Shown: piece by piece, positions 1 to 15,419 of the stretch
Layout: every line of letters begins with the position of its first letter
How positions within the stretch are numbered: the first letter of the stretch is position 1
Origin: Candidatus Thalassospirochaeta sargassi
Lineage (GTDB): Bacteria > Spirochaetota > Spirochaetia > UBA9216
Direction of reading: 5' to 3'
NCBI GenBank assembly: GCA_028532855.1
Contig: JAQQAL010000028.1
Span: forward strand, 1-64,000
DNA length: 64,000 nt
Program-made: the position numbers and the translations under genes
Notes under the pieces: model-generated
The model's input: the letters and a program-made list of their open reading frames with translations, nothing else
Databases searched by the model: none
What the model was told of the DNA's origin: nothing

Positions 1-45
1 ATCTACATCTTCATAAAATTCTTCTTTCGTTGTAAACTCACTCAT
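1..45 (-). CDS. 5' end of an unidentified gene running off the left edge
   Basis: Reading leftwards from base 45 there is ATG followed by 14 open codons (MSEFTTKEEFYEDVD) to the window edge. An AAAGGGA Shine-Dalgarno-like box lies at 54-60, eight bases before the ATG. That combination makes it a plausible gene start, but only 15 codons are visible and no function can be given. It points away from the tail gene that opens at 65, which would put two start regions back to back in only about 20 bases. Confidence 0.35.
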   Translation of the reverse strand, partial: MSEFTTKEEFYEDVD

Positions 46-64
46 AGAGCATATCCCTTTTGTA

Positions 65-3000
65 TTGGTTTTGTCACCAATTATTTTACAAAAGGATTTG
101 CTCTTTTTTTACCCCCATCCACAACTTTTGATTATATCTCCAGGTGTTACAACTTTAGATTCTTCAGAGATTGATTACACAGTTCCAATTTGTGAAATCG
201 GTTCGGATTCAGCATGGAAGGAATTAAAAAAAATTGCAGATTTGTATAAAGCAGATTTGTATTATCGCTATGATGGTGCATTAAGATTTTTCTCACCTTA
301 TGAAACTACTTATTCAACGCCTACTGCTGAATGGACATTTATTGCTGATTGCTCAAAAGAACAGTCAACTTCAGAGAGTTTAGTAAGAGGAAAAATTACA
401 AAATCAAATAATTCAATCTCAGCAAATAGATGTAAAGTCGAGTTTAAAGAATATGAAAGTTTTGATGAACAAATAATATTTTTAAGTACAGAAAATTATG
501 ATGCATCAACAGGTTATTGTAATATAGAAATTGCAGGAACTTCTTATTACCCAGGTGACGGAGCAACAGACTATGCATCTTTGCAATATAAAGACCCAAT
601 TAAAAATGTCACTATTACAATAGGTACTGATGTACAAACTCCAACAATTGGAACAACTGGTTCTGGTTGTGATATTGAATATACAGGCGGAAGTTTACAA
701 CTCGTTTCTTTTAATGGCTCAACATCTGCTACTAAACAGGAGGCGGGTGCTTCTCAAATAATTTTATATAATCCAACTGCTTCAACATGCACAATTACAA
801 AATTGACTATCAGAGGTGTTCCTCATATCGCAACAAAAACAAATACAGTTGAAGACATAGACCCATCACTTACTTATGTATATGAAGAAGTTGAAGAGTC
901 CATAGAAGGAAAATATGCATCTACTGTAGAGCAGGCACAATCAGCATGTTTTCGAACTGTTGAATATGGAAGAGTAAAAAGAAAATCAATTAAGTTTCAA
1001 TCTGACTGGTGTCCTTTATTACAAAAGGGTGTAGTAATCAATTTCAAAGAAGAAGGTGAATCCGACCAGATATATAAAATTACTCAGTTTACTCATAAGA
1101 ATAAGGGGACACAATTTTATACTGAAATAGAAGCAGATGAGTTTATAGATACTTCTACTGTAACTAGAACTATTTCAAAAGGTTTAACAATCTCGCCAGA
1201 CATAACGACTAAGCAAAATGAAGACGTTGAACAATCAATTAATGATGTTGAAGAAATTGTTTCACAGGTTCCTACCATCAATGAACTCAATTCAGATGCT
1301 ACCTTTACGTCAGTTGGCGATGATAGTACTACAATTCCGACAATCCCGATTTTAACCTTAACGCCTCTTTTTAACGGAATGAAATTAGAAATGGACATGC
1401 AGGAAAACTTATCTAATTTTAAATGTTTTGAAATGCAGGTGTCAGGTGATAATTTAGATTGGTATTCTTTACAAACAGATGGAACAGATTTCAAAGACAC
1501 TTTAGATGCTGATACTGATTATTCTTATGGTCGCTATATTCATTCTCCAATTCCACAGGCCGGAACATCAGAAGAACCAACAGGTCAATTAGTTTATTAC
1601 CGAGTTAGAAGAAAGACCAAAGAAAATATAACTTCTTCATGGTCAACAGTGCAAAGCGCAACAACGCTATTACTACAATCTTCAGATATCCCAATCAATA
1701 CGATTTCAACAAATAAATTGGAAACAAACTTTTTGGAAACTGCATTTGCAGAAGTAGATGATGAATTAGTAATAGGTTCAGATTCAACAGACCCAACTAA
1801 CCCGGATAGAGGTGACCGCTTAATTACAATAGATGAAAATAAAATATTAATACAGGAAGTAAGTGACCCAAATGATTTTTATGAAAATAATAAAATACAG
1901 ATTGGCGGCGTTGATGAAGATGATGTTTTTGTAAGCGGTGTGGCCTGTAAGCAGGTTGTAAATCCCGCAGTGGATTTTCCAAAACAGGAATTTAAGCCAT
2001 CACCTTCATATCACATTGTTTCTTTTGAAGACGGATATGAAACAGATACAGGAGAATTTGAAAGTAGTTATTCTGATTTGCGTACAACAGTTTGGTCAAA
2101 ATATGGCGATTATTCATTTACGAGTTCTGGGGCAACTGAATGGTTAGGGCGAGTTGAATATGAACATCATCATGATTTAGATGATGAGTTTATTTGTACA
2201 TGTTGGTTAAATTATGACACTTTAATCAGCTATGAAGATACATGGGATATATTCAGACTGAACAATAATTATGACGATGGTACTTTTAGAATAACTGTAT
2301 TTATAGATGTTGTTGGAGCCACCAGTACAATTAAATTAGAATTAAAAGAAATCGTCGGTACACAGGTAGAACAATTAGTATATGTAGCAGGCCCTTCATA
2401 TACTACAGCGCCGGGTGAATTGTTTATTAAAGCTTTTTATTCTCCTAATACAAATACTTTGAAATTGAGTGTGAACAATGTTGATTATACAGCATCACCT
2501 GTTCCATTAAGTATTTCAGGAACTATAGACTACGGATATCTTTCGGCTTATTCAGTTAATTCTACACATGGTGTTACTTATCTCGATGATATTGTTTGGA
2601 GCAGTGAAGCTTCAATTGACTTAGATATTTTCGAACAACATTATTATCATGATGCGCCATGGACTGGTCCTTATAGTGCAAAAGATATTGTTCTCATCCC
2701 AGAAAGCGGCGGAAGAGTTTTCATTGATGGTGGCTTAAAAATAAATGGTGATAATGAAATTGTTGAATGGATAAACGTGCCCGAAGTAGACATGTTTGGA
2801 AGTTGGGAAAAGTACGATGATTATACAACTTATGGAAGTGCGAGATATTATAAAGATGATGCAGGCATTGTCCATGTTGAGTTGATGGTAAAGAACGGCT
2901 CAACAACTGATAACATTATTAAATTACCGGAAGGCTATCGACCCGACCATAAAATATTAACACATGGCTACTCAGCTGCCGGGGCATGCAGAATTGATAT

Positions 3001-3352
3001 TGGAACAGATGGATATGTTACATGCAAAACAAATTGTTCTTCAACATGGACTGCATTTACTCATTCTTTTGCTGTTGGCGGTGGCAATTCAAATCCAACA
3101 GTTGGAGCAAAAGGGGATAAGGGTGATAAAGGTGATGCAGGCTTAGCAACGCAATGGTCAGCAGGCACTTATAATTATGGACAGATTGTTTCAAATGGCA
3201 ATTACCTATGGATTGTGATTGCAACATCAACAACTGAAGAACCTTCTGATTACTCATCAGATTGGAGGAAATGGGATAATACAAATTTAATAACTACATC
3301 AACATCTGATCCATCTGGCGGGTTAGACGGAGATATTTGGATAAAGATTTAA
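65..3352 (+). CDS. Phage tail tip / fibre protein, probably truncated at its N-terminus
   Basis: The product is about 1095 residues. It opens with a segment typical of the middle of tail-hub proteins (residues ~30-75: IDYTVPI followed by SAWKELKKIADLYKADLYY and RFFSPYE). It then has a beta-rich region, an FnIII-like part (~430-540), a laminin-G/concanavalin-like part (~650-830) and a collagen-like GAKGDKGDKGDAG stretch near residue 1020. Such proteins form the baseplate or central fibre and contact the host surface. The only upstream start is TTG at 65 with no ribosome site, and the residues before ~30 look unlike a protein N-terminus. I infer the 5' part of the gene is missing, either by deletion or rearrangement or because it lies beyond the window. 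The next gene starts 3 bases after the stop. Confidence 0.75.
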   Translation: MVLSPIILQKDLLFFYPHPQLLIISPGVTTLDSSEIDYTVPICEIGSDSAWKELKKIADLYKADLYYRYDGALRFFSPYETTYSTPTAEWTFIADCSKEQSTSESLVRGKITKSNNSISANRCKVEFKEYESFDEQIIFLSTENYDASTGYCNIEIAGTSYYPGDGATDYASLQYKDPIKNVTITIGTDVQTPTIGTTGSGCDIEYTGGSLQLVSFNGSTSATKQEAGASQIILYNPTASTCTITKLTIRGVPHIATKTNTVEDIDPSLTYVYEEVEESIEGKYASTVEQAQSACFRTVEYGRVKRKSIKFQSDWCPLLQKGVVINFKEEGESDQIYKITQFTHKNKGTQFYTEIEADEFIDTSTVTRTISKGLTISPDITTKQNEDVEQSINDVEEIVSQVPTINELNSDATFTSVGDDSTTIPTIPILTLTPLFNGMKLEMDMQENLSNFKCFEMQVSGDNLDWYSLQTDGTDFKDTLDADTDYSYGRYIHSPIPQAGTSEEPTGQLVYYRVRRKTKENITSSWSTVQSATTLLLQSSDIPINTISTNKLETNFLETAFAEVDDELVIGSDSTDPTNPDRGDRLITIDENKILIQEVSDPNDFYENNKIQIGGVDEDDVFVSGVACKQVVNPAVDFPKQEFKPSPSYHIVSFEDGYETDTGEFESSYSDLRTTVWSKYGDYSFTSSGATEWLGRVEYEHHHDLDDEFICTCWLNYDTLISYEDTWDIFRLNNNYDDGTFRITVFIDVVGATSTIKLELKEIVGTQVEQLVYVAGPSYTTAPGELFIKAFYSPNTNTLKLSVNNVDYTASPVPLSISGTIDYGYLSAYSVNSTHGVTYLDDIVWSSEASIDLDIFEQHYYHDAPWTGPYSAKDIVLIPESGGRVFIDGGLKINGDNEIVEWINVPEVDMFGSWEKYDDYTTYGSARYYKDDAGIVHVELMVKNGSTTDNIIKLPEGYRPDHKILTHGYSAAGACRIDIGTDGYVTCKTNCSSTWTAFTHSFAVGGGNSNPTVGAKGDKGDKGDAGLATQWSAGTYNYGQIVSNGNYLWIVIATSTTEEPSDYSSDWRKWDNTNLITTSTSDPSGGLDGDIWIKI

Positions 3353-3354
3353 AA

Positions 3355-4476
3355 ATGCAAATTAAAAAAGACGGAGTATGGAAACCAACAAAACAATTTC
3401 TCGGTAAATATAATGACACATGGTCTGATGGTGATTTATGGTTTAAAGTCGATGGAGTGTGGCGACAACATGTGCCGCCTAATGCTGTAATTTTATATTC
3501 TTCTACATCAAATATAAATTCCGGTTATATTGCTGATGGAAATAACTCAACGCCTAATTTATTAAATAGATATGTAAGAATAAGGTCTGATGACCCTTTA
3601 ACTTTAGGTGGAGCATCATCTCACACCGGCTCTTCTCATGGCACAGGTGGAACTCGATATACGAATTATGTATCATCAACGCAGGCATGTAATAATTTAG
3701 GTTTGACACCACGAGCTACGAGAATTACTTCGCATCGGCATAGTATAAGCTCGCATACTCATCCATCAACAGGAAATAATCTACCGAGTTATCAAAACAG
3801 TTACCCGTATATGTATAGCAGTAAATTATATTCGGGAGCTGTTATTTTAAGCAGTATTACTCAGGTTTTATCAGCACTTTCATATTTGTCAGCTTATTCA
3901 GGTTATAGATGCAGATTAGATAATAACGTTACACAGGCTTCAAAAAGTACGGCTCATACACATGGTACTGTGTCACCTGCTGTTAGTGATTTTAATGAAT
4001 CAGATGGGTATATAGATAATCAACCATCTTCATCACCATCATCATGGTACACGATTCATGACCACTCAGCTTCGCATTCTATGCCGTCAGTGACTCCAAC
4101 TTATTATTATATGAATGTAATCCCGTATAGTTTAGGAAGTGATTTATATTTTGATGAATTACCTTCAGGCTCTTTAGTTTTATTCACAACACGGCGTTAC
4201 CCAGACGGCTGGTCTGAATGGAAGAATACCGGAAGGATAATTAGATATTATTCATCAGCAGGTGGATATGGTGGTAGTTCAACTCACACTCATTCGGGGA
4301 CAAAGACAACAGGCTCATGGATAAATAGAGGCTCAACTGTTAAAGCGACATATGAGAATATTTCATTTAATGAAAAGTATTTGAAATCACATACTCATAC
4401 ATGGACAGACAGCCATTCAGCAGCGGTATCAAATGCACCGCCTTATGTAAATTTAGCAATAGGTGTTAAGGATTAA
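3355..4476 (+). CDS. His-rich phage tail fibre / collar-like protein
   Basis: The product is about 373 residues. It contains two collar-type segments, each with a proline-glycine turn such as SGSLVLFTTRRYPDGWSEW at ~285-305, and many HxH motifs (HRHSISSHTHP, AHTHG, HDHS, THTHSG, SHTHTW). In known receptor-binding fibre tips, HxH repeats coordinate iron along a trimeric needle; that role here is inference from the motif pattern. The N-terminus (KDGVWKP, DGDLWFKVDGVW) resembles the GDIW ending of the preceding protein and may be a shared docking module. Start choice is uncertain: ATG 3355 lies just after the previous stop, while TTG 3337 lies closer to a GGAG. It is co-directional with the tail gene and the next small gene. 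Confidence 0.8.
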   Translation: MQIKKDGVWKPTKQFLGKYNDTWSDGDLWFKVDGVWRQHVPPNAVILYSSTSNINSGYIADGNNSTPNLLNRYVRIRSDDPLTLGGASSHTGSSHGTGGTRYTNYVSSTQACNNLGLTPRATRITSHRHSISSHTHPSTGNNLPSYQNSYPYMYSSKLYSGAVILSSITQVLSALSYLSAYSGYRCRLDNNVTQASKSTAHTHGTVSPAVSDFNESDGYIDNQPSSSPSSWYTIHDHSASHSMPSVTPTYYYMNVIPYSLGSDLYFDELPSGSLVLFTTRRYPDGWSEWKNTGRIIRYYSSAGGYGGSSTHTHSGTKTTGSWINRGSTVKATYENISFNEKYLKSHTHTWTDSHSAAVSNAPPYVNLAIGVKD

Positions 4477-4489
4477 AGGAGATTTAAAA

Positions 4490-4696
4490 ATGGATATAGC
4501 AAATGATTTAGAAATACAAAAAGAAGAATTAAATAATTTGATGAATGAAAAAATAAAAGCTTTGGATTCTTTAGATTATGAAGGGTTTAATGAATTACGA
4601 TTTGAATTTGATGTTATCTCATTCAAATTAGAAATTATGTCAAAGCAGTTAGAATTAGAGAATATAGAAAAGCAAATATCTTCCGAGGTTGTCTAA
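4490..4696 (+). CDS. Small phage coiled-coil protein
   Basis: A 68-residue acidic, almost wholly helical product with heptad-like Leu/Ile spacing (residues 8-60) and no membrane segment. ATG 4490 is chosen because AAAGGAG sits at 4475-4481. Its stop overlaps the next start as TAATG at 4694-4698, so the two are probably translationally coupled. It lies between the tail fibre and the holin-like gene, a place where tail-fibre chaperones and small lysis accessory proteins are common, but I do not recognise the family. Confidence 0.7.
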   Translation: MDIANDLEIQKEELNNLMNEKIKALDSLDYEGFNELRFEFDVISFKLEIMSKQLELENIEKQISSEVV

Positions 4697-5097
4697 TGCC
4701 TTATAGCGGAGAAGAGAGAAGAAAAGAAGAAATTAATGTTCAACAATATATGGAGGTGCTCGTGTCTAATGTCAAAGAATTATTTTCATCAGAAGTATCT
4801 TCAGTCAAAGAGCAAATTAGTAATTTAGAAGATAAATTATCACAACAGTTAAAACATCATGAAGAACAATCGGAAAGTAAAATTAAGCAATTTGAGGAAG
4901 AGATAATTTGTCTTAAAAATAAAATTAATAACATCGATAAACGAGTTGAAGAGTTGGAATTGAAACCTGTTCAGACAAAGGCCGGGTGGATTGATAAATT
5001 TGGAGCTGTATTTCAAAAAGTTCTTTATACAGCTATAGCGAGTAGTCTTTTAGGGATTATAGTTTATTTAGTGACTCAGTATTTCCAATCGTTATAA
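4696..5097 (+). CDS. Holin-like / XhlA-type membrane protein with long coiled coil
   Basis: A 133-residue product. Residues ~10-95 form a charged coiled coil. Residues ~108-128 (VLYTAIASSLLGIIVYLVTQY) are a single hydrophobic membrane segment followed by a short tail. This layout matches hemolysin XhlA-type or other phage holin-associated proteins found after tail-fibre genes. The start overlaps the upstream stop, so it is coupled to the 4490 gene. It is the last rightward phage gene; the restriction enzyme gene converges on it with an 8-base gap. No endolysin follows, which is unusual for a lysis cassette. Confidence 0.6.
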   Translation: MPYSGEERRKEEINVQQYMEVLVSNVKELFSSEVSSVKEQISNLEDKLSQQLKHHEEQSESKIKQFEEEIICLKNKINNIDKRVEELELKPVQTKAGWIDKFGAVFQKVLYTAIASSLLGIIVYLVTQYFQSL

Positions 5098-5104
5098 TTT
5101 TGAA

Positions 5105-8100
5105 TTAGAATTCTACGACTTTATCAATTTCCTTCATGAGTCTATCAGTTTCAGTTAAGGCTACAATGATTTTCTGATAATGAAAAATATCATCAAAAGA
5201 AAGTTCTCTGCCTTTTCTGTCTTTGAGCCATTTCTGAGCAGGCTGATAGCCACCGATATAAAAGTTCCATGCTATTTCAGGAACTCCGTCAAAATATTGT
5301 TCTTTATTTATGTATACTTTAGAATCTTTAAATTGAGGCTTATCAACAATATTAGTGCCTTCCTTTGGAAAGGATGTTATAAAGTCATTTACTTTAGGTG
5401 ATTCTAATAAATGAATATTACGGAGCTGGCTACCTAATTCAGCTAACTTCCAAAAATTTTCTTCATCTTTTGGTTGAGGGATACGGGGGAAATCAATTTT
5501 TAAGAATTCTAAATATTTTTTTCGATACATAGTCGAATGTAAAATGGCATATTCATAATTAAAAAAATCGATATCACTAAATGATTTTGGATTTTCATTC
5601 GGTTGAAAATTATACTTTAAATTTGTTTTAAGTTCAAATTTCTCAATAAATTGTGGATTAAGGTTTGATGATTTTTCAAAATTATCATTCTCAATATAAA
5701 TTGGAAAAACTGAGCAGTATCCTTTATTGCTAATAAAAAGCCTATTGTCGACAATAGAGTCAGAGATGAAAGTATAACAATAATCAGGAACAGAATAAGC
5801 AAATTGTCTCATTGATATCAAAGCAATGTTGTCGTCGTTTATTAAATGTTTCATTATTGTATTTCTCGGACGTCCCATTATTCCATTTGAAACACCTGTA
5901 TATACTGTGTATTTAAAGTCAAATGGCCGGTAATTAAATTTCACTATCTTTGGAGTATTCTTTTTTGCATCATTTTGAGCCCTTTTGACTTTTGGGATTA
6001 CTTTTTCTTCTAAAGAATGTTTTGTAATAAAGTCTTCTGCGTTTAGCTCACAAAGGTCTGAGATTAATTCAGCGCATCTATCTTTAGAATCATGTACAAC
6101 AACTTTATCAAACTCTGTATTTATACCCACATTAGAATTCATATAGATATCTTTCAGACTATAAAAATTATCGAATTCGGATTTAAGACTAAAATCTTTT
6201 GGTACAAAAAAGAAATCAGGAGTTTGTGGGGATAGTTCAGTCCAACTGATATTGTGTAAAGCGCTTTTGTTTAAATATTCATATTTTTCACTTCTCTTTC
6301 CTAATATATCGATGTGATTTACTTTTGCTGTTTTCGTTTTCTGGTTTTTATGTTTGACAAATATGTTAATGCTGACTCCCTGTTGAATGTCAAAAACGTT
6401 TTCATCCTTTCCTCCACTTACAGTCATTTCATTGCGATTAGAATTGCCATGTAAATCTAAAACATAAATAGACGAAAAGCTTTCTAATAAAGATTTTCGC
6501 ATTTGCTTATGGATTAAACCATCAATAAAACTGTTATTTGAAATAAAAGCGATGATTCCTTCACTGTTTTTATCAATGAAAAACTGACTGAAACGGATAA
6601 ATTTTATGTAATCATCTGATAGTGGATTAATATTTCTCTCATTCAGGTTCCTTTTATATTCAGTCATTAGTGATTCAATCCATTCTGATTTATTTGAACT
6701 ACTAACAGAGTATGGGGGATTCCCGATTATACACATGACAGGAGTTTCTTTCTTAACGGCATTGGCTTCGTTTGCTTCATTGGAAAGCCAACTCGCAAAT
6801 AAAGTGCCTGTATCGGGGTGAGCTTCTTCTAAACTATTTGTTAGGAATACACGCAATCTCTTCTGTTTGTAAACATCTTTGGGTTTATACCCTGTTTCAC
6901 GAAGCATCATTTCAATTTTTAGATGGCACATTGTGTATGGAGCCATTAAGATTTCAAAACCATTTAATCGAGGTAATAAGTGTTCTTCGACATAAGAAGA
7001 CCAAAGTCCTTCCTGTCCTTTAAATTTTGAGTAAATCTGTTTTACAACTTCAGCTAAGAATGTTCCCGTTCCGGTAGATGGGTCGAGTATTTGAACTTTA
7101 TGTACTTCTTTGTCCATTTGCCTAATTCTATTCTTATAGCGCTTATCAGTTATTTGAGAATCAACATTAATTTTAATTTTAGATGTATCAGCCAATCCCT
7201 GAGATAATCCAAACTCATCTTTAAGAATGTCATCAACTGCCCGAACAATAAAGTTTACGACAGGTTCAGGTGTGTAATATACACCACGAGATTTGCGAAG
7301 TTTGGAATCGTACTCTGCCAGGAATGTTTCATAAAAGTGAATGAATGGGTCTGTCTGACCTGTTGTTGTACCAAAGTCTTTTAATAAAGATTGTAAGTCT
7401 GTAGCACGAAGTATGTCAGCTAAATCATCAACTATCCATACAACACGCTCATCTAAATCAGCACCAGAAACATAGTCAAATAAATTACGTAAAAATGGGT
7501 TAGAACGGGGAATGAGTTCTCGCGCTTCCTGCCGTGAGAAGTCTTCTAAAGTTTCATCGTGAAGACGGGCTGCAAAGAGTCCATAAGCAATAGTTTGAGC
7601 ATAAATATCGGCAAACTTTTTTTCATCTAAATCATGGATGAGAATTTCTCTAAAGGCTTCGAGTTGGTCATGTAAAGTGTTGTAATCATCTTCAGTATCA
7701 GAGACAGCATTGAATAATACTTCCTCCATCATGCGAGCCTTCTGAGCCATCATTTTTGCTAACTTTTCAGCCGATTTTATGGTCTGGCCTTTGAAGTCGC
7801 AAAAGTCAGTAATATGAGTTGTGAAGCTGTCAAAGTTATCAGATAAGGGGTTAACTTTTGAATCAGCAATCTCAGCGAGTTTTACAGTAGAGACTTTATT
7901 GCCATAGCGGTAGAATCTGAACTCTAAATAGTCAGTAAGGATTAAATTGTCCAAACTGCCTAAATAGCGTTTCATCTGGTCTGTTTTCTCAACTTTATCT
8001 AAATCAATGCCTATATCCTTTGCTTCTATATAACCTAAAGGAACTTCTTTTCTCTGAATGATGTAATCGGGGGCGCCACATTTTTGCCGTTTTGGTTCGT

Positions 8101-8227
8101 TCGTTACAGTTACTTTATCAGCAATTTCTCGTATAAGTACCTGTAGGTCACCACGATATGAATGTTCTGTGGATATGCCTGTGGCATAGCGGGTTTTGAT
8201 TTCTTTTATATAGGTATTGATAGGCAT
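5105..8227 (-). CDS. Single-chain type IIG / ISP-like restriction-modification enzyme
   Basis: A 1040-residue fusion of nuclease, N6-adenine methyltransferase and target-recognition parts. The N-terminal nuclease shows a PD-(D/E)xK pattern: D54 in APDY, then E68 and K70 in YIEAKD. Methyltransferase motif I is DPSTGTGTF at 382-390 and motif IV is NPPY at 503-506. The C-terminus (GGYQPAQKWLKDRKGR, then HYQKIIVAL) matches the specificity domain found in type ISP enzymes. The translocase helicase of true type ISP proteins is absent, so type IIG/IIL-like cutting near an asymmetric site is the better inference. A GGAG lies about 5 bases before ATG 8227. It is inserted convergently to the phage late genes, as a moron would be. 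All catalytic motifs are intact, so it is probably active. Confidence 0.88.
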   Translation of the reverse strand: MPINTYIKEIKTRYATGISTEHSYRGDLQVLIREIADKVTVTNEPKRQKCGAPDYIIQRKEVPLGYIEAKDIGIDLDKVEKTDQMKRYLGSLDNLILTDYLEFRFYRYGNKVSTVKLAEIADSKVNPLSDNFDSFTTHITDFCDFKGQTIKSAEKLAKMMAQKARMMEEVLFNAVSDTEDDYNTLHDQLEAFREILIHDLDEKKFADIYAQTIAYGLFAARLHDETLEDFSRQEARELIPRSNPFLRNLFDYVSGADLDERVVWIVDDLADILRATDLQSLLKDFGTTTGQTDPFIHFYETFLAEYDSKLRKSRGVYYTPEPVVNFIVRAVDDILKDEFGLSQGLADTSKIKINVDSQITDKRYKNRIRQMDKEVHKVQILDPSTGTGTFLAEVVKQIYSKFKGQEGLWSSYVEEHLLPRLNGFEILMAPYTMCHLKIEMMLRETGYKPKDVYKQKRLRVFLTNSLEEAHPDTGTLFASWLSNEANEANAVKKETPVMCIIGNPPYSVSSSNKSEWIESLMTEYKRNLNERNINPLSDDYIKFIRFSQFFIDKNSEGIIAFISNNSFIDGLIHKQMRKSLLESFSSIYVLDLHGNSNRNEMTVSGGKDENVFDIQQGVSINIFVKHKNQKTKTAKVNHIDILGKRSEKYEYLNKSALHNISWTELSPQTPDFFFVPKDFSLKSEFDNFYSLKDIYMNSNVGINTEFDKVVVHDSKDRCAELISDLCELNAEDFITKHSLEEKVIPKVKRAQNDAKKNTPKIVKFNYRPFDFKYTVYTGVSNGIMGRPRNTIMKHLINDDNIALISMRQFAYSVPDYCYTFISDSIVDNRLFISNKGYCSVFPIYIENDNFEKSSNLNPQFIEKFELKTNLKYNFQPNENPKSFSDIDFFNYEYAILHSTMYRKKYLEFLKIDFPRIPQPKDEENFWKLAELGSQLRNIHLLESPKVNDFITSFPKEGTNIVDKPQFKDSKVYINKEQYFDGVPEIAWNFYIGGYQPAQKWLKDRKGRELSFDDIFHYQKIIVALTETDRLMKEIDKVVEF

Positions 8228-8250
8228 AGGCTCTCCGAAACTATGATTTT

Positions 8251-8265
8251 TATCTATTACAGATA
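8251..8265. promoter_or_regulatory. Inverted repeat upstream of the restriction-modification gene
   Basis: A 15-base inverted repeat (TATCT-ATTAC-AGATA) lies 24 bases before the ATG of the restriction-modification gene, where an operator or start-site element would sit. No controller-protein gene is visible next to it, so the regulator, if any, is unknown. Confidence 0.3.
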
Positions 8266-8342
8266 GGATATCCCAAAATCACTAAAAATGAAATCACATT
8301 AACAAAGAATTGAAAAAAGCGCTCCCGGCTAAGAAAGGGCCG

Positions 8343-8371
8343 TGTACATTCCAAATTCCACGCAGTAGAAT
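8343..8371 (+). promoter_or_regulatory. Promoter TGTACA-N17-TAGAAT for the small-gene cassette
   Basis: TGTACA at 8343-8348 and TAGAAT at 8366-8371 are exactly 17 bases apart, 28 bases before the ATG at 8400. The same pair of hexamers with the same spacing, also preceded by CCG, recurs at 12872-12900, which supports a common element-specific promoter. Confidence 0.55.
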
Positions 8372-8399
8372 TCTTACATAATCAATTAAGGAGTTGGAA

Positions 8400-8609
8400 A
8401 TGATTAGAAAAATTGAAGTTGATGCAGCAATAGATGATATGAATGATTTCATAGTTTTTATGGAAGAGCTTAGCATCGAAGTTGTTGTAGTTGATGAATG
8501 CAACTCAATAACAAATTGGCCAACTGTAAGGCTTATCGGTGATGAAGATAAGCTCACTGAATACCTTATTGAAAATGATTGGGAAGATTTAGTAGGAGAG
8601 TGGCTTTAA
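8400..8609 (+). CDS. Small acidic hypothetical protein
   Basis: A 69-residue acidic product (MIRKIEVDAAIDDMNDFIVF...) with alternating beta and helix character and a WEDLVGEW ending. ATG 8400 is chosen over TTG 8394 because AAGGAG lies at 8388-8393. It is the first gene behind the promoter at 8343-8371 and is followed 27 bases later by another small gene. I do not recognise the family. Size, acidity and position among defence genes fit an inhibitor, antitoxin or DNA-mimic role, but nothing in the sequence proves that. Confidence 0.7.
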   Translation: MIRKIEVDAAIDDMNDFIVFMEELSIEVVVVDECNSITNWPTVRLIGDEDKLTEYLIENDWEDLVGEWL

Positions 8610-8636
8610 GCCGCTCTTTGGATAAGGAGAATATAG

Positions 8637-8828
8637 ATGAAAACTTATTGGATTAGTTTAGAAAATATGGGTGAAGGTTTTTCACACCATGTAACAGCTT
8701 CAGATATTGAATACACATCAGTAATAAATGGTTTTATTAAGTTTGAGAATCTAAGAACAGGAGGTATGAGGAAAGAGCAATTTGAAGAAGCTCTTAATGA
8801 GTTTTTGGCAACGATATCTATTGACTAA
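8637..8828 (+). CDS. Small hypothetical protein
   Basis: A 63-residue soluble product (MKTYWISLENMGEGFSHHVTASD...) with a TGGMRKEQFEEALNEF helix near its end. AAGGAG precedes ATG 8637 by 9 bases. It is co-directional with the 8400 gene and ends just before a strong terminator at 8832-8856. The family is not recognised; the WISLENMGEGFSHHV start suggests a small beta-sheet protein. Confidence 0.68.
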   Translation: MKTYWISLENMGEGFSHHVTASDIEYTSVINGFIKFENLRTGGMRKEQFEEALNEFLATISID

Positions 8829-8831
8829 TAG

Positions 8832-8856
8832 GAGGGCTGAGAAGCCCTCTTTTTTT
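8832..8856 (+). terminator. Rho-independent terminator
   Basis: The stem GAGGGCT / AGCCCTC (8832-8838 and 8843-8849) has a GAGA tetraloop and is followed by seven T. It closes the two-gene unit at 8400-8828. Confidence 0.88.
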
Positions 8857-8868
8857 GTAGGAGGATAT

Positions 8869-9201
8869 ATGAAGGATTGGGAACTTATCTATTCATATTC
8901 GAGGGATGATGCGATGAGAGACGGCGTGTTACGTGACGTTACTTATTTAGCAAAACAGTATGGTTTTCGTCTCAATACGGCGATTACAGAGACTTTGTGG
9001 CATATCGTAGGAGGTGATGAAGAAGAGATTAAAGACTTATTGGTTGATTTATGGATTCGCATAAAGCAGACCGATGGTAAGGTTTCAATGCTTATATATG
9101 ATTATAAGATAGGAAAGCGAACTGTGAAAATCCGGTCAGAAGTAGGGCCAGGTGATGATGCGTATCCGGTTTTAACTATCGGAACGCCACATGATTTTTA
9201 A
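8869..9201 (+). CDS. Hypothetical phage/defence-island protein
   Basis: A 110-residue product beginning MKDWELIYSYSRDDAMRDGV. ATG 8869 has GTAGGAGG directly upstream (8858-8864); a longer reading from 8782 would run through the terminator, so it is rejected. The sequence alternates helices and strands (LAKQYGFRLNTAITETLWHIVGG, then KVSMLIYDYKIG) and resembles small DUF6573-type phage/plasmid proteins in the RDGVLRDVT region, but that is only a memory-level match. It is followed 10 bases later by a basic-tailed small gene. Confidence 0.7.
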   Translation: MKDWELIYSYSRDDAMRDGVLRDVTYLAKQYGFRLNTAITETLWHIVGGDEEEIKDLLVDLWIRIKQTDGKVSMLIYDYKIGKRTVKIRSEVGPGDDAYPVLTIGTPHDF

Positions 9202-9211
9202 GGAGAATAAT

Positions 9212-9424
9212 ATGACAGTAATGGAAAGATTGATTGATGTAGAAGGAATGGAAGATGAGATGGTCTATTCAAAGTTTAAGACAGGTAAGAACAATGTAAA
9301 AAAGGTTCTTAAAGTTCTATTATTTGATGAGTTGAGAGATGAGATGGAAAAAGAGGATAAGCCCCCTCGGCAACGCAAACCACGAGATAAGAAAGAAAAA
9401 CCGGATGAGACGGTAACAACTTAG
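9212..9424 (+). CDS. Small hypothetical protein with charged tail
   Basis: A 70-residue product: residues 1-48 are predicted helical and residues 49-70 form a Lys/Arg/Glu/Pro-rich disordered tail (PPRQRKPRDKKEKP). AAGGAG at 9200-9205 overlaps the preceding stop region and fixes ATG 9212. It forms a two-gene unit with the 8869 gene and ends at a strong terminator. The basic tail could bind nucleic acid; the family is not recognised. Confidence 0.66.
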   Translation: MTVMERLIDVEGMEDEMVYSKFKTGKNNVKKVLKVLLFDELRDEMEKEDKPPRQRKPRDKKEKPDETVTT

Positions 9425-9427
9425 TTT

Positions 9428-9452
9428 AAGGAGCCTTTTGGCTCCTTTTTTT
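9428..9452 (+). terminator. Rho-independent terminator
   Basis: The stem AAGGAGCC / GGCTCCTT (9428-9435 and 9440-9447) has a TTTT loop and a following T run. It closes the 8869-9424 unit and separates it from the nuclease gene at 9500. Confidence 0.88.
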
Positions 9453-9499
9453 GTGAATAAATTGTTTATGAAATGATAGAAAATGGCTAAAATGTATCT

Positions 9500-10414
9500 A
9501 TGAAATATCGTATTACTCCTCAACTTATATCTTTAACTTATGAAGCTGCATTACAATCATTTTGGCGGCATAATGCATTAAAGAAATATCTCAGAGGTTG
9601 TGAGTTACCCGAAAAATACCTCAACAGTTGGGATAAAGAAGAAACTAAACGTGCTTTTTTGGATAGAGTGTTTGAAGAACTTCAAAATAATGATGAGGGT
9701 AAGGCATTTGTTTTAAAATTAGCATTGTCTCTGATTGAACAGAAGACATTCCCAGACTTAAGAAATTGGGAAGATTCAGATATTAAAATCCAAAATGCAC
9801 AAAGGGCTGTACAGGATTTAAGAACATATTTAAAAGAACAAAACCAGAAGATTAGGAGCGAGGAAGAAAAGCTATCATCTAAAAAAAGAGCAAACGAAGA
9901 GAGGCAGAAGCTTCAAAGACAGGTTACAGATAAAAATAAATTACAGGAAAGATTAAATAGTTTATTTACAGAAATTGGAACTCAGTCCGGGGGATATAAA
10001 TTTCAGGATTGGTTTTATGACTTATTAGATTATTGTGAAATCGATAATAAACGTCCATACGTAATAGATGGAAGACAGATAGATGGGTCTTTAACTCATG
10101 AAGGAACGACATATCTGGTTGAATTGAAATTTACAGCTTCACAAAGTTCTGCAACTGACGTTGATTCGATTAAAGCAAAAGTTAATAAAATGGCTGACAA
10201 CACTATGGCTATTCTATTATCCATGTCTGGATTTAGCGAAGTAGCAAAGAATGATGCATCAGGCAGTAAAACAACTTTATTGTTAATGGAGTCAGCTCAC
10301 GTTTTTCTATTCCTCACAGGGGGAATGAACTTTAAAGATATTATTAGCCGTATTAGGCGACATGCTTCTCAGACAGGCGAATCATATTTATCTGTCAATG
10401 ATTTCGGAAAATAA
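9500..10414 (+). CDS. Coiled-coil PD-(D/E)xK restriction-type nuclease
   Basis: A 304-residue product. Residues 1-85 are helical. Residues ~95-155 form a charged coiled coil (KEQNQKIRSEEEKLSSKK...). Residues ~160-290 look like a restriction-endonuclease fold: D195 in QIDGSL, then E208 and K210 in YLVELKF, the canonical D-ExK spacing. Mrr-like and other type IV enzymes use this core to cut DNA, often modified DNA. The coiled coil may drive dimerisation. It is a single-gene unit. A TAAAAT box ends 6 bases before the ATG with no ribosome site, so the message may be leaderless. I infer a stand-alone anti-phage nuclease; the substrate is unknown. Confidence 0.75.
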   Translation: MKYRITPQLISLTYEAALQSFWRHNALKKYLRGCELPEKYLNSWDKEETKRAFLDRVFEELQNNDEGKAFVLKLALSLIEQKTFPDLRNWEDSDIKIQNAQRAVQDLRTYLKEQNQKIRSEEEKLSSKKRANEERQKLQRQVTDKNKLQERLNSLFTEIGTQSGGYKFQDWFYDLLDYCEIDNKRPYVIDGRQIDGSLTHEGTTYLVELKFTASQSSATDVDSIKAKVNKMADNTMAILLSMSGFSEVAKNDASGSKTTLLLMESAHVFLFLTGGMNFKDIISRIRRHASQTGESYLSVNDFGK

Positions 10415-10419
10415 ACAGT

Positions 10420-10725
10420 TCACTTTATAGTTTTAAAGAAGGTGTTCCATGCATTCTTCACTTTTTCACTCTCGTCATCAGGTATGTTACTGTGAAAGAG
10501 TTCAATGTTCTGGTCACGAACAGAGTAAACTACTATGGACGGTTGGTCCCATTCTTTTATATTGAAAGCCGAAACTAAAGTTTTATTTTTTCTTTCTGTA
10601 ATAGCTTTAATTGTGATTTTAATAGGAAAATGTTTCTTAACAAATTTGTCGTCAGTTAAGTTAGAGTATAATTCTTTCATATTACTTTTTGGGAATTTGC
10701 CAATTACTTTGATTGCTTTTGCCAT
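10420..10725 (-). CDS. Small hypothetical protein with its own promoter
   Basis: A 101-residue product (MAKAIKVIGKFPKSNMKELY...) with mixed alpha/beta character, no membrane segment and no recognised motif. AAAGGAG precedes ATG 10725, so the longer reading from 10776 is rejected. It is convergent with the nuclease gene (stops 5 bases apart) and divergent from the PLD gene. A good promoter lies at 10748-10776 with a palindrome over its -35. A separately promoted reverse-strand small gene beside defence genes is the usual arrangement for a regulator or antitoxin, but no HTH is evident. Confidence 0.62.
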   Translation of the reverse strand: MAKAIKVIGKFPKSNMKELYSNLTDDKFVKKHFPIKITIKAITERKNKTLVSAFNIKEWDQPSIVVYSVRDQNIELFHSNIPDDESEKVKNAWNTFFKTIK

Positions 10726-10747
10726 GATGTACTCCTTTGGATGAGGA

Positions 10748-10776
10748 ATTATAGCAAAAGTGTGTGACATTGTCAT
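10748..10776 (-). promoter_or_regulatory. Promoter ATGACA-N17-TATAAT with overlapping palindrome
   Basis: On the minus strand, -35 ATGACA (10771-10776) and -10 TATAAT (10748-10753) are 17 bases apart, upstream of the gene starting at 10725. The 11-base palindrome TGACA-T-TGTCA at 10765-10775 covers the -35 and could be an operator. Confidence 0.65.
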
Positions 10777-10834
10777 TTAGAAAAATGATAGCCATAAATT
10801 TGCATAAGGTGTAAAATTACTGAAAGGTGAATGC

Positions 10835-11494
10835 ATGAAATTTCTTACAACAGATGAGATATCGGGTGAAATTGTAAAAGTAATACGGTCTGCTAAAGGC
10901 TATATTGTCTTAGCGTCTCCATATGTAAAGATAAGAGAGAACTATATTGATAGGATTCGAGAAGCTTCAAATAGAAATGTAGAAATACATTTTGTTTTTG
11001 GCAAAAGCGATTTAGATGAACGAGAGGTTAGAAAGCTCGAAACAATACCGAATCTTAATCTGCATTATTTAGAAAACCTACATGCAAAGTGTTATCTCAA
11101 CGAATCTACTGCCATTATCACCTCCATGAATTTACATGAGTATTCTGAAAAGAATAATCGTGAGATGGGAATGATGATTGAACGAGAATATAATGAAAAG
11201 CTCTATAATGAAATTAATGATGAACTCAAATCAATAGTTGATGCATCGACGCATTATACATTGAAGCAACCTAAATATCAGAATAATTATGACGATGATG
11301 TCGGTTATTGTATCCGTTGTAGTACTCAAATAGATTTTGACCCTGACCGACCGCTTTGTAATAGATGTTTTAATGAATGGCGGCAATACGGAGATGTGTA
11401 TTATTCAGAACAGTTTTGTCATGCCTGTGGTGATAGAGAAAGAACTTCGTATGCAAAGCCATTATGCTATAGTTGTTTTCGCGAGATAGGATAG
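10835..11494 (+). CDS. PLD-type nuclease with C-terminal zinc ribbons
   Basis: A 219-residue product. Residues 1-140 form a phospholipase D/nuclease half-fold with the catalytic HxK (H83, K85 in LHAKCYL) followed by S97 and N99 in ITSMN. One HKD motif per chain implies an active dimer, as in Nuc/BfiI-type nucleases. Residues 158-214 carry two CxxC...CxxC units (C159/162/175/178 and C195/198/211/214), which should bind zinc and may bind nucleic acid. AAAGGTG precedes ATG 10835. The stop lies 19 bases before the ApeA-like gene on the same strand, so the two are probably one operon. Hydrolysis of nucleic acid is inferred from the fold; no lipase signal peptide is present. Confidence 0.78.
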   Translation: MKFLTTDEISGEIVKVIRSAKGYIVLASPYVKIRENYIDRIREASNRNVEIHFVFGKSDLDEREVRKLETIPNLNLHYLENLHAKCYLNESTAIITSMNLHEYSEKNNREMGMMIEREYNEKLYNEINDELKSIVDASTHYTLKQPKYQNNYDDDVGYCIRCSTQIDFDPDRPLCNRCFNEWRQYGDVYYSEQFCHACGDRERTSYAKPLCYSCFREIG

Positions 11495-11513
11495 ATTGTG
11501 TAAATGGAAGAGT

Positions 11514-12863
11514 ATGAGTAAAAAGATAAGTTTATTAAAAAGCCACAGTTATTTTGGATTGTTTGTTGCTATATTAGAGGATACTACAATAAATTTTGGT
11601 GGTAAACTTATATTTGATTCAGAAAAAGGTTTCAACATCGAAGTTGTAGTTGAAGAATTTAATCAAAAACATGATGCTTTGCATAATAAAGATTATATTG
11701 AGAAATGTGAGGCGTACTTAATTGATGATAAAGAGAATTCACGACATTGTACTTTATATAATGTAGTTTTAAGTACAAAATATCATTCTTCTATAGAGAG
11801 TTCTAATGCGTTAAGATTTTACCCTCAAATTTGTTTATTTAATACATATCGAAATAAAATAGAAATTAACGCTGTAATTTTACATTTCCCATTTTGGAAT
11901 GATTTTTTCTATCCCAAAAGTCTTACAAAAGAACAAAGGTATTCTAATCGAGTAGAGCAATTTCAATTAAATAATGGTTGGAAAATCGAGTTTAAAGAGA
12001 ATGCAACTTATAATTTGGTTAATAGCAAAAATATCGATGGTATTTTTATTGATTTAGATGAAAGAATACAAATACCTGAAGACGTAAAGTATCTAAAACA
12101 TAAAGTCGGACATGACCACTATGTAGTGTTACTGCCAGAAAAGCATTTATGTGATAGATATAACGATTTTGGTCAAATTATAAAAGAAATTAATGTCTTT
12201 AGAAATTTCTTATCTATACTATTTCATATGAAAATCAATATTGAGAATATTGTATTACACACAACTGATGATGCTTATATTAATACTTTAATGGATATTA
12301 GAAATATAAATAAAATGCATCAAAGATATGAGCAGATGCATCATCATATGATGCCACTTACACATTCGAAAATTGATAATTTTGCTGAGATTATTCCAAA
12401 ATTTTATGACCAATATGCAATGTATGAAGCTATAATCGAAATAATTGTTCAGAGTTATGAGGAAGATTTCTCAAAATATCAGTATACGAGGATTGCGGAT
12501 AGTCTAAAAGAATTAGGTTTAAAATATGATGAAAAGCAACCATATAATTCAATTATCACTGCGATTGCAAATAATGAGATTCAAAAAGAAATAAAAAGTA
12601 TTTTCAAACAACAATTTAATGTGGATGATTGGGGTGCAATTGGGGTAAAGATTTCATCTTTAAGAGGATTAATAACACATTTCAATGGCGAAGAAGATGA
12701 TGACACTTTTTGTCTTCTCCACAATCTAACTCAAATTTTCAAAATTATTATTAATTCTTATTTTCTAAGGGAATTGGGTGTTGATGAAAAGTTAACCGAT
12801 ACGTACCAAACTCATCATTTCCACTATAGGACTACGATAGAAATGATGTATAGAGATGAATAA
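11514..12863 (+). CDS. ApeA-like HEPN-domain anti-phage protein
   Basis: A 449-residue product. The N-terminal ~200 residues are beta-rich (GKLIFDSEKG, CTLYNVV, ...NAVILHFPFWNDFF), a pattern like the ApeA N-terminal domain. The C-terminal ~170 residues are helical and contain R384-GLIT-H389, the Rx4H catalytic signature of HEPN ribonucleases. ApeA proteins are known single-gene anti-phage effectors thought to act by abortive RNA cleavage. Start ATG 11514 has GGAAGAG close upstream; TTG 11496 would add 6 residues. It follows the PLD gene by 19 bases and is the last element gene before the recQ junction. The HEPN call is firmer than the ApeA subfamily call. Confidence 0.68.
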   Translation: MSKKISLLKSHSYFGLFVAILEDTTINFGGKLIFDSEKGFNIEVVVEEFNQKHDALHNKDYIEKCEAYLIDDKENSRHCTLYNVVLSTKYHSSIESSNALRFYPQICLFNTYRNKIEINAVILHFPFWNDFFYPKSLTKEQRYSNRVEQFQLNNGWKIEFKENATYNLVNSKNIDGIFIDLDERIQIPEDVKYLKHKVGHDHYVVLLPEKHLCDRYNDFGQIIKEINVFRNFLSILFHMKINIENIVLHTTDDAYINTLMDIRNINKMHQRYEQMHHHMMPLTHSKIDNFAEIIPKFYDQYAMYEAIIEIIVQSYEEDFSKYQYTRIADSLKELGLKYDEKQPYNSIITAIANNEIQKEIKSIFKQQFNVDDWGAIGVKISSLRGLITHFNGEEDDDTFCLLHNLTQIFKIIINSYFLRELGVDEKLTDTYQTHHFHYRTTIEMMYRDE

Positions 12864-12871
12864 TTTAACCG

Positions 12872-12900
12872 TGTACATCTTCTAACCTTTATAGTAGAAT
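12872..12900 (+). promoter_or_regulatory. Outward-facing promoter TGTACA-N17-TAGAAT at the element edge
   Basis: TGTACA at 12872-12877 and TAGAAT at 12895-12900 repeat the promoter at 8343-8371, with the same CCG before the -35 and the same 17-base spacer length. It points right, out of the element and antisense to the truncated recQ frame. It may also be part of the attachment region. Confidence 0.45.
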
Positions 12901-12904
12901 AGAT

Positions 12905-12925
12905 TTAACATAAGAAGCCTGTCCC
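12905..12925. other. Element-chromosome junction in recQ (putative attachment site)
   Basis: RecQ-like coding sequence is recognisable down to about base 12,922 (the last Gly of AFGMG). Left of it the DNA becomes AT-rich and codes for nothing RecQ-like. The junction therefore lies near 12,910-12,922. The exact att core cannot be set without the other end of the element. Confidence 0.65.
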
Positions 12926-13174
12926 ATACCAAAGGCTATCGTGGCTGAAAGAATGCCGTCGGTGGAACAATGGAACCATTTTTCAATCCGTGTCTTTTCC
13001 TCCCTGCTGAGACCGGCATGATAGAAGAAAATCTCATTATCATTCAGACGCAGCCTCATTTCAAGGGCTGTGCGCTCGGCGGAACGCCGCGAGGAGCAGA
13101 AAATAAGTACCGGCCGTTTTACAAGCTTTGCCGGGGAATATTCCTCAAGATTATTAAGCCTATGCGTACTTTTA

Positions 13175-13198
13175 CCACTGCCACTGCCACTGCCACTG
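13175..13198. repeat. Hexanucleotide tandem repeat in recQ
   Basis: There are four copies of CCACTG in a row. On the minus strand they encode a GSGSGSGS linker between the helicase lobes. The unit is 6 bases, so copy-number change would alter linker length but not frame. Confidence 0.85.
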
Positions 13199-14039
13199 CC
13201 TGCAAGCAGCAGCTCAAGGCTGAGGTTCTTGCAAAGTGACGGCAGGACCGTATAGGAGATGTTGGGGCGGTCGGGGTTCGCTGAAACGATGTGCGGATGC
13301 TCGTCCGGAAAGAGTATCTCCTTAACCCGCCCCAATACCATATCGGACGCGGTTGCGGTAAAGGCTGTAACTATCGGAATCTCCGCCTCAACAAAAATAC
13401 GCCTGCTCTCAAGACAGGCTGGTCTGAAGCTGTCCCCCCATTCAGGGATTGTGTGCACCTCGTCGAATACCAGATGCAGAAAACGGCATTCCTTCAGCCT
13501 CGGAAGAATCCCGGGCGAGAGGGCGGTCTCGGGGTTAGTCAGTACTATTTTAATGCCTCCCTCAGCGATGCCGCTGAACAGTTCTCTGCGTTCGGCGGCG
13601 CTCTGTCCTCCGACAAGGCGGCAGGCTCCTATGCCCGCGTCTTCGCAGCGGCGCAGCTGGTCGGAAATAAGAGAGAGCAGGGGGAATATTACAAGTGTAG
13701 GTCCTTGAAGCATGAGGGAGGGGAGCATGAAGCATAGACTTTTTCCGGCCCCGGTAGGGAGAATAACAATCTGCTTTGAGGGTGCTTCACTCTGCAAGCC
13801 TGCCGCTGCTTCCAGAATATTTGAAATAACAAGCCGCTGATACGGGAAAAGATAACTGATTCCGAAATTATCCTTTGCGGTGTCGCTTATCGGGTCGGGC
13901 GCTGATGTGGTCCATTCATCCTGTATAGGTATTTGACTGTCCATATTATCCTATAACCGGATTTTTCAATCCTGCTTCAGAATAAAAGAATAAGATTTAT
14001 TGCTTTTGATGTTTTACGAGTTTGAGTACGTAAACGGGG

Positions 14040-15413
14040 TTATTTAAACAGTTTCTCTACATTTTCCTCGGGGGCTCTGACCTTAATATCGGTTCCCATC
14101 CGGCGCATTTTCTGATAAACATCCTGCAGGGCGGCTCTGGCCGAGGGGTCAATCTTTGTTACCTTGGACATGTCCAGAATTATCTCCTTCCGCTTTTTCA
14201 TCATTTCGTATTTTAAAAGATGAACAAGGTACTGTATGTTAGGAAGATTCAGCACACCGCTTAATGCAAACTTTCCGGGTTTTGTTGAGTCAAGGACTAT
14301 TCCTAATGGCAGGTTCCAGTTTCCGAGCGGTTCGGAAAGATTTTCTCCACGTTCAAACCTGATAAGCATTTCATTAGTATTGCGCAGTCTCTGAACAAGA
14401 CCCCGAATCAGCTCGAGGAACCAGCCCGGAACATTATAAACATTGTTATAAAAATCACGCACATCAAGCACATGGACGGTTCCCGGTTTATCTGCAATAA
14501 CGTCGGCTGAGCGGATGCCTTCCTTAATCAGCGACATTTCGCCTATTACATCACCGCTTTCAGCCTTGGCCAGCTGAATTGTTCCCGTTTCAGTCTCGCG
14601 TGAAATTGTGAAGCTGCCGTTTTTGACGACGTACATCACATGTTCAAGCGCACCCTGTTTTATAAGAAGCTCACCCTTGTCTACATGCTTTATGGGAATG
14701 TGGGTTTTGGCCATGATGTTCTGCAGGCCCTGAATTGAGAGAACCTTGTCGCGGATGAGCTGCATATTCTCAATACGAATGCGGTTCTCGGCAACATCGT
14801 TTGATTTTATCAGGCTGAAAATGTAATTAATGCCGGCCTGATCAATATCGATAACATCAGAAAAATCGAGTATCAGTATTGTATCCGGTTTCAGTTTCAG
14901 TTCTCTGATTTTGTTCTTGATAGGGTCGATTGATTTCTCAGTAAATTTACCCTTTAGAAAAAGGCGGCGGGCCTGCTCCTGTCTAACCGCGGAACGGTCG
15001 GGCAGGGGCACCGCTGCCGCAGCCTGAGCCTCGGTTATAGTCGGTGTTTCATGGCCTATCATATATTCACCGAGCTGCTCGGTTGTAGTTCTTATTCGTC
15101 TGACTAGCACTTTTGCAATCGAAACCGCCCATGAAGAGAGCCCCAGGTGCTCATCATCCAGTATGTTAGGCGGAATCTCGTTAGCCATGATATTGGTTTC
15201 TGCAATGACAGTTGCCGAGCGCTTAACCCCGGTTAGAAACGACATTTCGCCGACATACTGTCCCTTCCCGAGTTCAGTAATAGGTATCTGTCTGCCCTCT
15301 TTTTCAATCAGGACCTTAGCTGTTCCCGTTCTGATAATATACATATTCCGGCTTGTTTCGCCGGATTTGAATATCACATCGCCTTTATTAAAACGTACGA
15401 GCCTGGTGTCCAT
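14040..15413 (-). CDS. Tandem cyclic-nucleotide-binding / STAS signalling protein
   Basis: A 457-residue cytoplasmic product. Residues ~5-120 are a cNMP-binding (Crp-like) jelly roll (FKSGETSRNMYII, GEMSFLTG with R in VKRSAT). Residues ~160-235 are STAS-like (ILILDFSDVIDIDQAGINYIF). Residues ~245-345 are a second cNMP domain (GDVIGEMSLIKEGIRSADVIA). Residues ~370-457 are a second STAS-like part (EIILDMSKVTKIDPSARAAL). There is no DNA-binding or catalytic domain, so it probably relays cyclic-nucleotide or partner-switch signals by protein contact. ATG 15413 lies 6 bases after a TATCCT box, suggesting a leaderless message. It lies downstream of the chemoreceptor gene on the same strand. Confidence 0.8.
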   Translation of the reverse strand: MDTRLVRFNKGDVIFKSGETSRNMYIIRTGTAKVLIEKEGRQIPITELGKGQYVGEMSFLTGVKRSATVIAETNIMANEIPPNILDDEHLGLSSWAVSIAKVLVRRIRTTTEQLGEYMIGHETPTITEAQAAAAVPLPDRSAVRQEQARRLFLKGKFTEKSIDPIKNKIRELKLKPDTILILDFSDVIDIDQAGINYIFSLIKSNDVAENRIRIENMQLIRDKVLSIQGLQNIMAKTHIPIKHVDKGELLIKQGALEHVMYVVKNGSFTISRETETGTIQLAKAESGDVIGEMSLIKEGIRSADVIADKPGTVHVLDVRDFYNNVYNVPGWFLELIRGLVQRLRNTNEMLIRFERGENLSEPLGNWNLPLGIVLDSTKPGKFALSGVLNLPNIQYLVHLLKYEMMKKRKEIILDMSKVTKIDPSARAALQDVYQKMRRMGTDIKVRAPEENVEKLFK

Positions 15414-15419
15414 ATTCAA

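Follow-up and report, generated by a model that had tools for sequence, protein, structure and literature searches.

The window, the whole stretch of 64,000 nucleotides analyzed here, comprises bases 1–64000 of contig C28 (76,615 bp) from a genome, G000, of 3.84 Mb in 53 contigs. The genome has three matches to FlaA, a family of periplasmic flagellar proteins that gave no match in any of 14 control genomes, and the host is therefore very probably a spirochaete. A 351-codon open reading frame (ORF) on its minus strand (12889–13944) is RecQ-like as far as helicase motif V and has the C terminus ...ATIAFGMG followed by QASYVKSILL and a stop codon. The RecQ-like 5′ part of the gene (12926–13944, minus strand) encodes motifs I–V, matches the Pfam domains DEAD and Helicase_C, and is 72% identical, up to residue 342, to an intact ortholog in genome G003. 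End-reaching alignments with relatives from the same genus and class break off at residues 341–342, and the frames of most relatives extend past this breakpoint, as RecQ, to about 490–580 codons; the alignment with genome G032 breaks off at residue 346, and the G032 gene is split at the same place. The last ten residues of the window ORF are encoded in AT-rich DNA (12889–12922, minus strand) without RecQ similarity; this element-derived tail forms the right arm of an attachment site and is inverted-repeat-like to the arm at a second junction on contig C37. RecQ-derived DNA stops at 12923, and GC content falls across the junction from 52% (13–14 kb) to 30% (12–13 kb). A preliminary description of this DNA had read the frame as RecQ-like to motif V followed by ten foreign residues and a stop, as the alignments ending at 341–342 confirm, and had placed the junction near 12,910–12,922 at the start of the low-GC block, which is right to within a base.

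The same description took the interrupted gene for canonical recQ, an assignment that did not survive comparison with the intact gene. The G003 ortholog is 490 aa long, matches DEAD, Helicase_C, ResIII, and RecQ_Zn_bind only, contains neither RQC nor HRDC according to the domain search, and at 261 bits lies below the NCBIfam recQ equivalog cut-off of 640 bits. A canonical RecQ with RQC, HRDC, and zinc domain is encoded on contig C4 of the window's genome. Together, these comparisons identify the interrupted gene as a short RecQ paralog rather than canonical recQ, and the canonical RecQ of the genome is unaffected by the insertion. At 13178–13202 of the recQ-like gene, a 6-bp repeat of the CCACTG type encodes a GSGSGSGSG stretch between the two helicase lobes, which keeps the frame and is missing from the G003 ortholog.

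Since the contig starts where the window does, the rest of the gene was sought on the other contigs, with the C-terminal region of the G003 protein as the query. The 3′ half was found in the same genome at C37:4918–5454 (plus strand), with 54% identity to the query; its first residues are exactly motif V, and it includes motif VI. Comparison of the two junctions identified a shared core, TATGGG (12923–12928 in the window, minus strand), the 5′ side reading ...GCCTTTGGTATGGGACAGGCTTCTTATG... and the 3′ side ...AGAGCAGTCAATGCTATGGGGGTCGACAAG.... When joined in silico at TATGGG, the two halves fuse in frame into an uninterrupted gene of 515 codons, which marks the insertion as both precise and site-specific. 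The 3′ half is 56% and 54% identical to its counterparts in relatives, and since the relatives' unsplit halves are 56% identical among themselves, it bears no sign of decay. In the lysogen, the ATG of the core might serve as the start codon of an independent ORF of 176 aa that covers the C-terminal part of the helicase, with motif VI and the zinc site (C37:4924–5454).

Contig C188 of genome G001, from the same genus, encodes, in order, a cNMP/STAS protein, the recQ-like gene, an MBL hydrolase, nth, an MntR-like protein, and a GGDEF protein; the counterparts of the last four are on C37 in the window's genome. The G001 recQ-like gene has no insertion at motif V and has both flanks on one contig; it contains a frameshift near codon 290 that is unrelated to the split. 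The chromosomal flank in the window is a gene for a cNMP-binding/STAS protein (14040–15419, minus strand), the ortholog of which adjoins the gene unsplit at motif V on C188. As G001 has orthologs of both flanks in order on one contig, C28 and C37 represent one chromosomal locus, and from the junctions together with synteny we infer that their ends are physically linked as one insertion. The two ends of the element sit on different contigs, and its middle was not recovered.

Adjoining the helicase 3′ half on C37 is an intact gene for a 561-aa large serine recombinase (LSR; 3188–4873, minus strand). Its start codon and the junction are 50 bp apart, and the gene reads into the element. The protein matches the Resolvase (2e-28) and Recombinase (9e-19) domains, conserves R9 and S11, and has 'integrase' as its best PHROG family (2.7e-63). 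Like LSRs of the integrase type, it has the serine recombinase catalytic domain ahead of a Recombinase domain and ends in a long C-terminal region, and, as is also expected of that type, its gene lies beside a junction with a short core and inverted arms. Site-specific integration by the LSR is strongly supported, and the enzyme would catalyze recombination of attP with attB. Scans with the G000 LSR alone and with an alignment of three LSRs from gene-splitting elements found no relatives in viral contigs, no phage record covered 80% of the LSR query in one place, and a pattern scan of genome contigs, with patterns that proved too general, returned only distant LSRs of ≤34% identity. These LSRs are distant from solved and phage-database relatives. 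With the 3′ fragment and an integrase on the other flank, relatives uninterrupted, and the flanks contiguous in G001, the preliminary proposal of a prophage or island inside the gene is borne out.

The same split was found in two further families of the class, represented by genomes G032 and G144. In G032, a single-contig genome, the 5′ part (C1:1576438–1577412, minus strand) and the 3′ part (1549221–1549526, minus strand) are about 27 kb apart, and the 3′ part is adjoined by an LSR with 35% identity to that of G000. In G144, the 5′ part is at the end of contig C30 with an LSR 55 bp downstream (43% identity to the G000 LSR over 220 aa) that is truncated by the end of a contig, and the 3′ part is on C21. 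Both LSR genes lie 45–55 bp inside a junction. The cut point in all three genomes is at the GG-ATG-GG codons of motif V, and joining in silico gives intact frames of 515 (the window's genome), 523, and 572 codons, the frame in G144 being intact when the junction is registered on the second ATGGG. LSRs at E ≤ 1e-30 were detected in 5 of 395 genomes of the class (G000, G032, G144, G188, and G105), three of which have the split recQ-like gene. The G188 LSR is at a contig end in a genome that has no match to the helicase C-terminal query, and that of G105 is more distant than the other four. In a phylogenetic tree, the LSRs of G000, G032, G144, and G188 form a well-supported group (100/97) without internal resolution, which leaves undecided whether the recQ-targeting LSRs exclude that of G188. 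Motif V of the RecQ paralog is thus a recurrent docking site in three families.

The two arms of each element are inverted-repeat-like about the core, with shuffle P values of 0.0004 (the window's element), 0.0026, and 0.019. The right arms of the three elements share six identical columns (P 0.0001), and the motif TCTTAT (12910–12915 in the window, minus strand) occupies right-arm offsets 10–15 from the core in all three; CTT is found at left-arm offset 13 in 3/3. The AT of the Met codon (12926–12927) is the sole dinucleotide common to both junctions of all three elements and is probably the crossover dinucleotide. As the LSR is oppositely placed in G144, inverted insertion via a palindromic AT core was considered; the polarity of the arm offsets with respect to recQ is unchanged, however, and inversion is not claimed.

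The right end of the integrated element occupies positions 1–12922 of the window, the contig beginning inside it; its GC content is about 33% versus 40–52% beyond 13 kb, it ends sharply at the recQ junction, and the integrase is at the other end. The sequence at positions 1–140 recurs unchanged at the beginning of contigs C38, C39, and C41, beyond which the contigs run into unrelated sequence; this multicopy, IS-end-like repeat breaks the assembly within the prophage and probably interrupts the first tail-like gene. Cargo genes encode a type IIG/type ISP restriction-modification protein of 1040 aa (5105–8227, minus strand; Type_ISP_C, 5e-70; PADLOC REase_MTase_IIG), a PLD-like protein (10835–11494, plus strand; PLDc_2, 1.7e-12), and an ApeA/HEPN-like defense protein (11496–12863, plus strand; ApeA_NTD1, 4.8e-9, and HEPN_Apea, 2e-5; PADLOC PDC-S58). 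Within this block of defense genes by the right junction, a 304-aa protein (9500–10414) without Pfam, PHROG, or PADLOC matches has a C-terminal nuclease-like domain suggested by eye. The element also contains ORFs that are tail-like, as judged by eye and by position, with PHROG matches that are at most weak and of unknown function. No terminase, portal, or capsid gene could be assigned to the window's element, the middle of which is missing and the PHROG matches of which are weak. Contig C50 has a portal and a terminase, but it was rejected as a candidate for the missing middle, being a separate prophage with its own tyrosine integrase. This second prophage (C50:1–16278) also has methyltransferase-like and helicase-like genes and a HerA-like ATPase ORF; the assignments, the portal excepted, were made by eye. 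The G144 element encodes large and small terminase subunits beside its junction, further into the element. Among the scanned ORFs of the G032 element there is no structural phage gene, and its cargo comprises a 1620-aa ISP-type restriction-modification protein and GmrSD-like, ParA-like, UvrD-like, and IS256-like transposase proteins. An ISP/IIG restriction-modification protein is thus found in two otherwise different recQ-inserted elements, with 1040 aa in G000 and 1620 aa in G032 (L180, 2162–7024). On the weak PHROG matches and the evidence from G144, the window's element is best described as temperate-phage-like.

We consider it highly probable that a temperate-phage-like element with its own LSR has split the helicase by inserting site-specifically at motif V of this short RecQ paralog. 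The LSR would recombine attP with an attB that consists of the conserved DNA of motif V, the codons GGT-ATG-GGG within A-F-G-M-G; motif V DNA of the canonical recQ is identical at 27/39 positions. In the lysogen, the 5′ part would give a protein lacking motif VI and the zinc site, the 3′ part would be left without the ATPase half, and precise excision would make the gene in-frame again. Motif VI is needed for ATP hydrolysis in superfamily 2 helicases, and because the 3′ half alone encodes this motif (QESGRAGR), the split helicase is very likely inactive while the element is integrated. The preliminary description had also predicted inactivation, and the loss of motif VI sustains it; its further premise, loss of the RQC and HRDC domains, falls away, since the intact ortholog does not have them.

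The halves do lie on separate contigs of a draft assembly of 53, and an assembly artifact, simple frameshift, or deletion could produce a short ORF; the junctions, however, are deep inside their contigs (12.9 kb and 4.9 kb inward of the ends), the other junction has both an integrase and the half that the ORF lacks, and the single-contig genome G032 has the same arrangement, so we give this explanation almost no credence. The preliminary description also raised a switch by excision and a benefit to the phage. Active lysogeny, in which some condition would prompt the element to excise from the recQ-like gene and so restore the helicase, by analogy with SPbeta in spsM or the prophage in comK, would be consistent with the frame that precise excision would restore in all three genomes, with the intact LSR, and with a 3′ half that decays no faster than in unsplit relatives (56% and 54% versus 56%). 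We nevertheless think it improbable: an intact frame is equally expected if the insertion is recent, the short RecQ paralog is not known to be regulated or to have a phenotype, and the first tail-like gene begins in the multicopy repeat, so the element may be damaged.

Alternatively, selection might have favored the insertion because the element gains from loss of the helicase, which could, for instance, act in recombination or against phages. Three related LSRs retain this target across three families, and DNA competence genes are overrepresented among LSR targets (PMC10083194), but a conserved motif makes a good attB on mechanical grounds alone, the canonical RecQ is still present, and the LSR family is rare (5/395 genomes), so that a single specificity passed on by descent may account for the recurrence; we regard selected loss as unlikely. 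A broader reading, that a spirochaete-wide integrase lineage is specialized for motif V of the RecQ paralog and that the elements either exploit the split gene as a switch that can be reversed or thereby remove an antagonistic helicase, we hold to be equally doubtful. Site-specific insertion of a temperate-phage-like element, the reading we prefer, would add a conserved helicase motif to the natural docking sites of mobile elements, with three predicted attP/attB pairs, and the LSRs could serve as integration tools. The apparent repeated loss by insertion of a spirochaete RecQ-family paralog raises the question of what this helicase does and whether its loss is reversible.

The Listeria A118 prophage reportedly carries a serine integrase and is inserted in comK. 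Like A118, the element described here encodes an LSR and has a short core at which it interrupts a protein-coding gene, and its precise excision would restore the frame; it differs in its target, a spirochaete RecQ paralog, and in that regulated excision is not in evidence. Restoration of an intact frame on excision, as expected of comK- and SPbeta-spsM-type insertions, was obtained in silico for all three elements (515, 523, and 572 codons). Groups of distantly related LSRs that share one target gene are described by Durrant et al. 2022 (PMC10083194), and the LSRs found here resemble them in that diverged enzymes (35–43% identity) target one and the same site in a conserved gene; neither recQ nor a helicase is mentioned in the main text of Durrant et al., and its supplementary tables could still list a recQ target. 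PMC4482086 describes dusA as a conserved coding gene that is a recurrent attachment site for many elements; the recQ-like gene shares this recurrence, but its site is mid-gene, in motif V, whereas that of dusA falls within the 5′ end. In the main texts of openly available papers, we found no relevant report of recQ as an attachment site. Gene-splitting LSR elements of the comK type are a known kind, to which the recQ-like target and its recurrence appear to be new additions.
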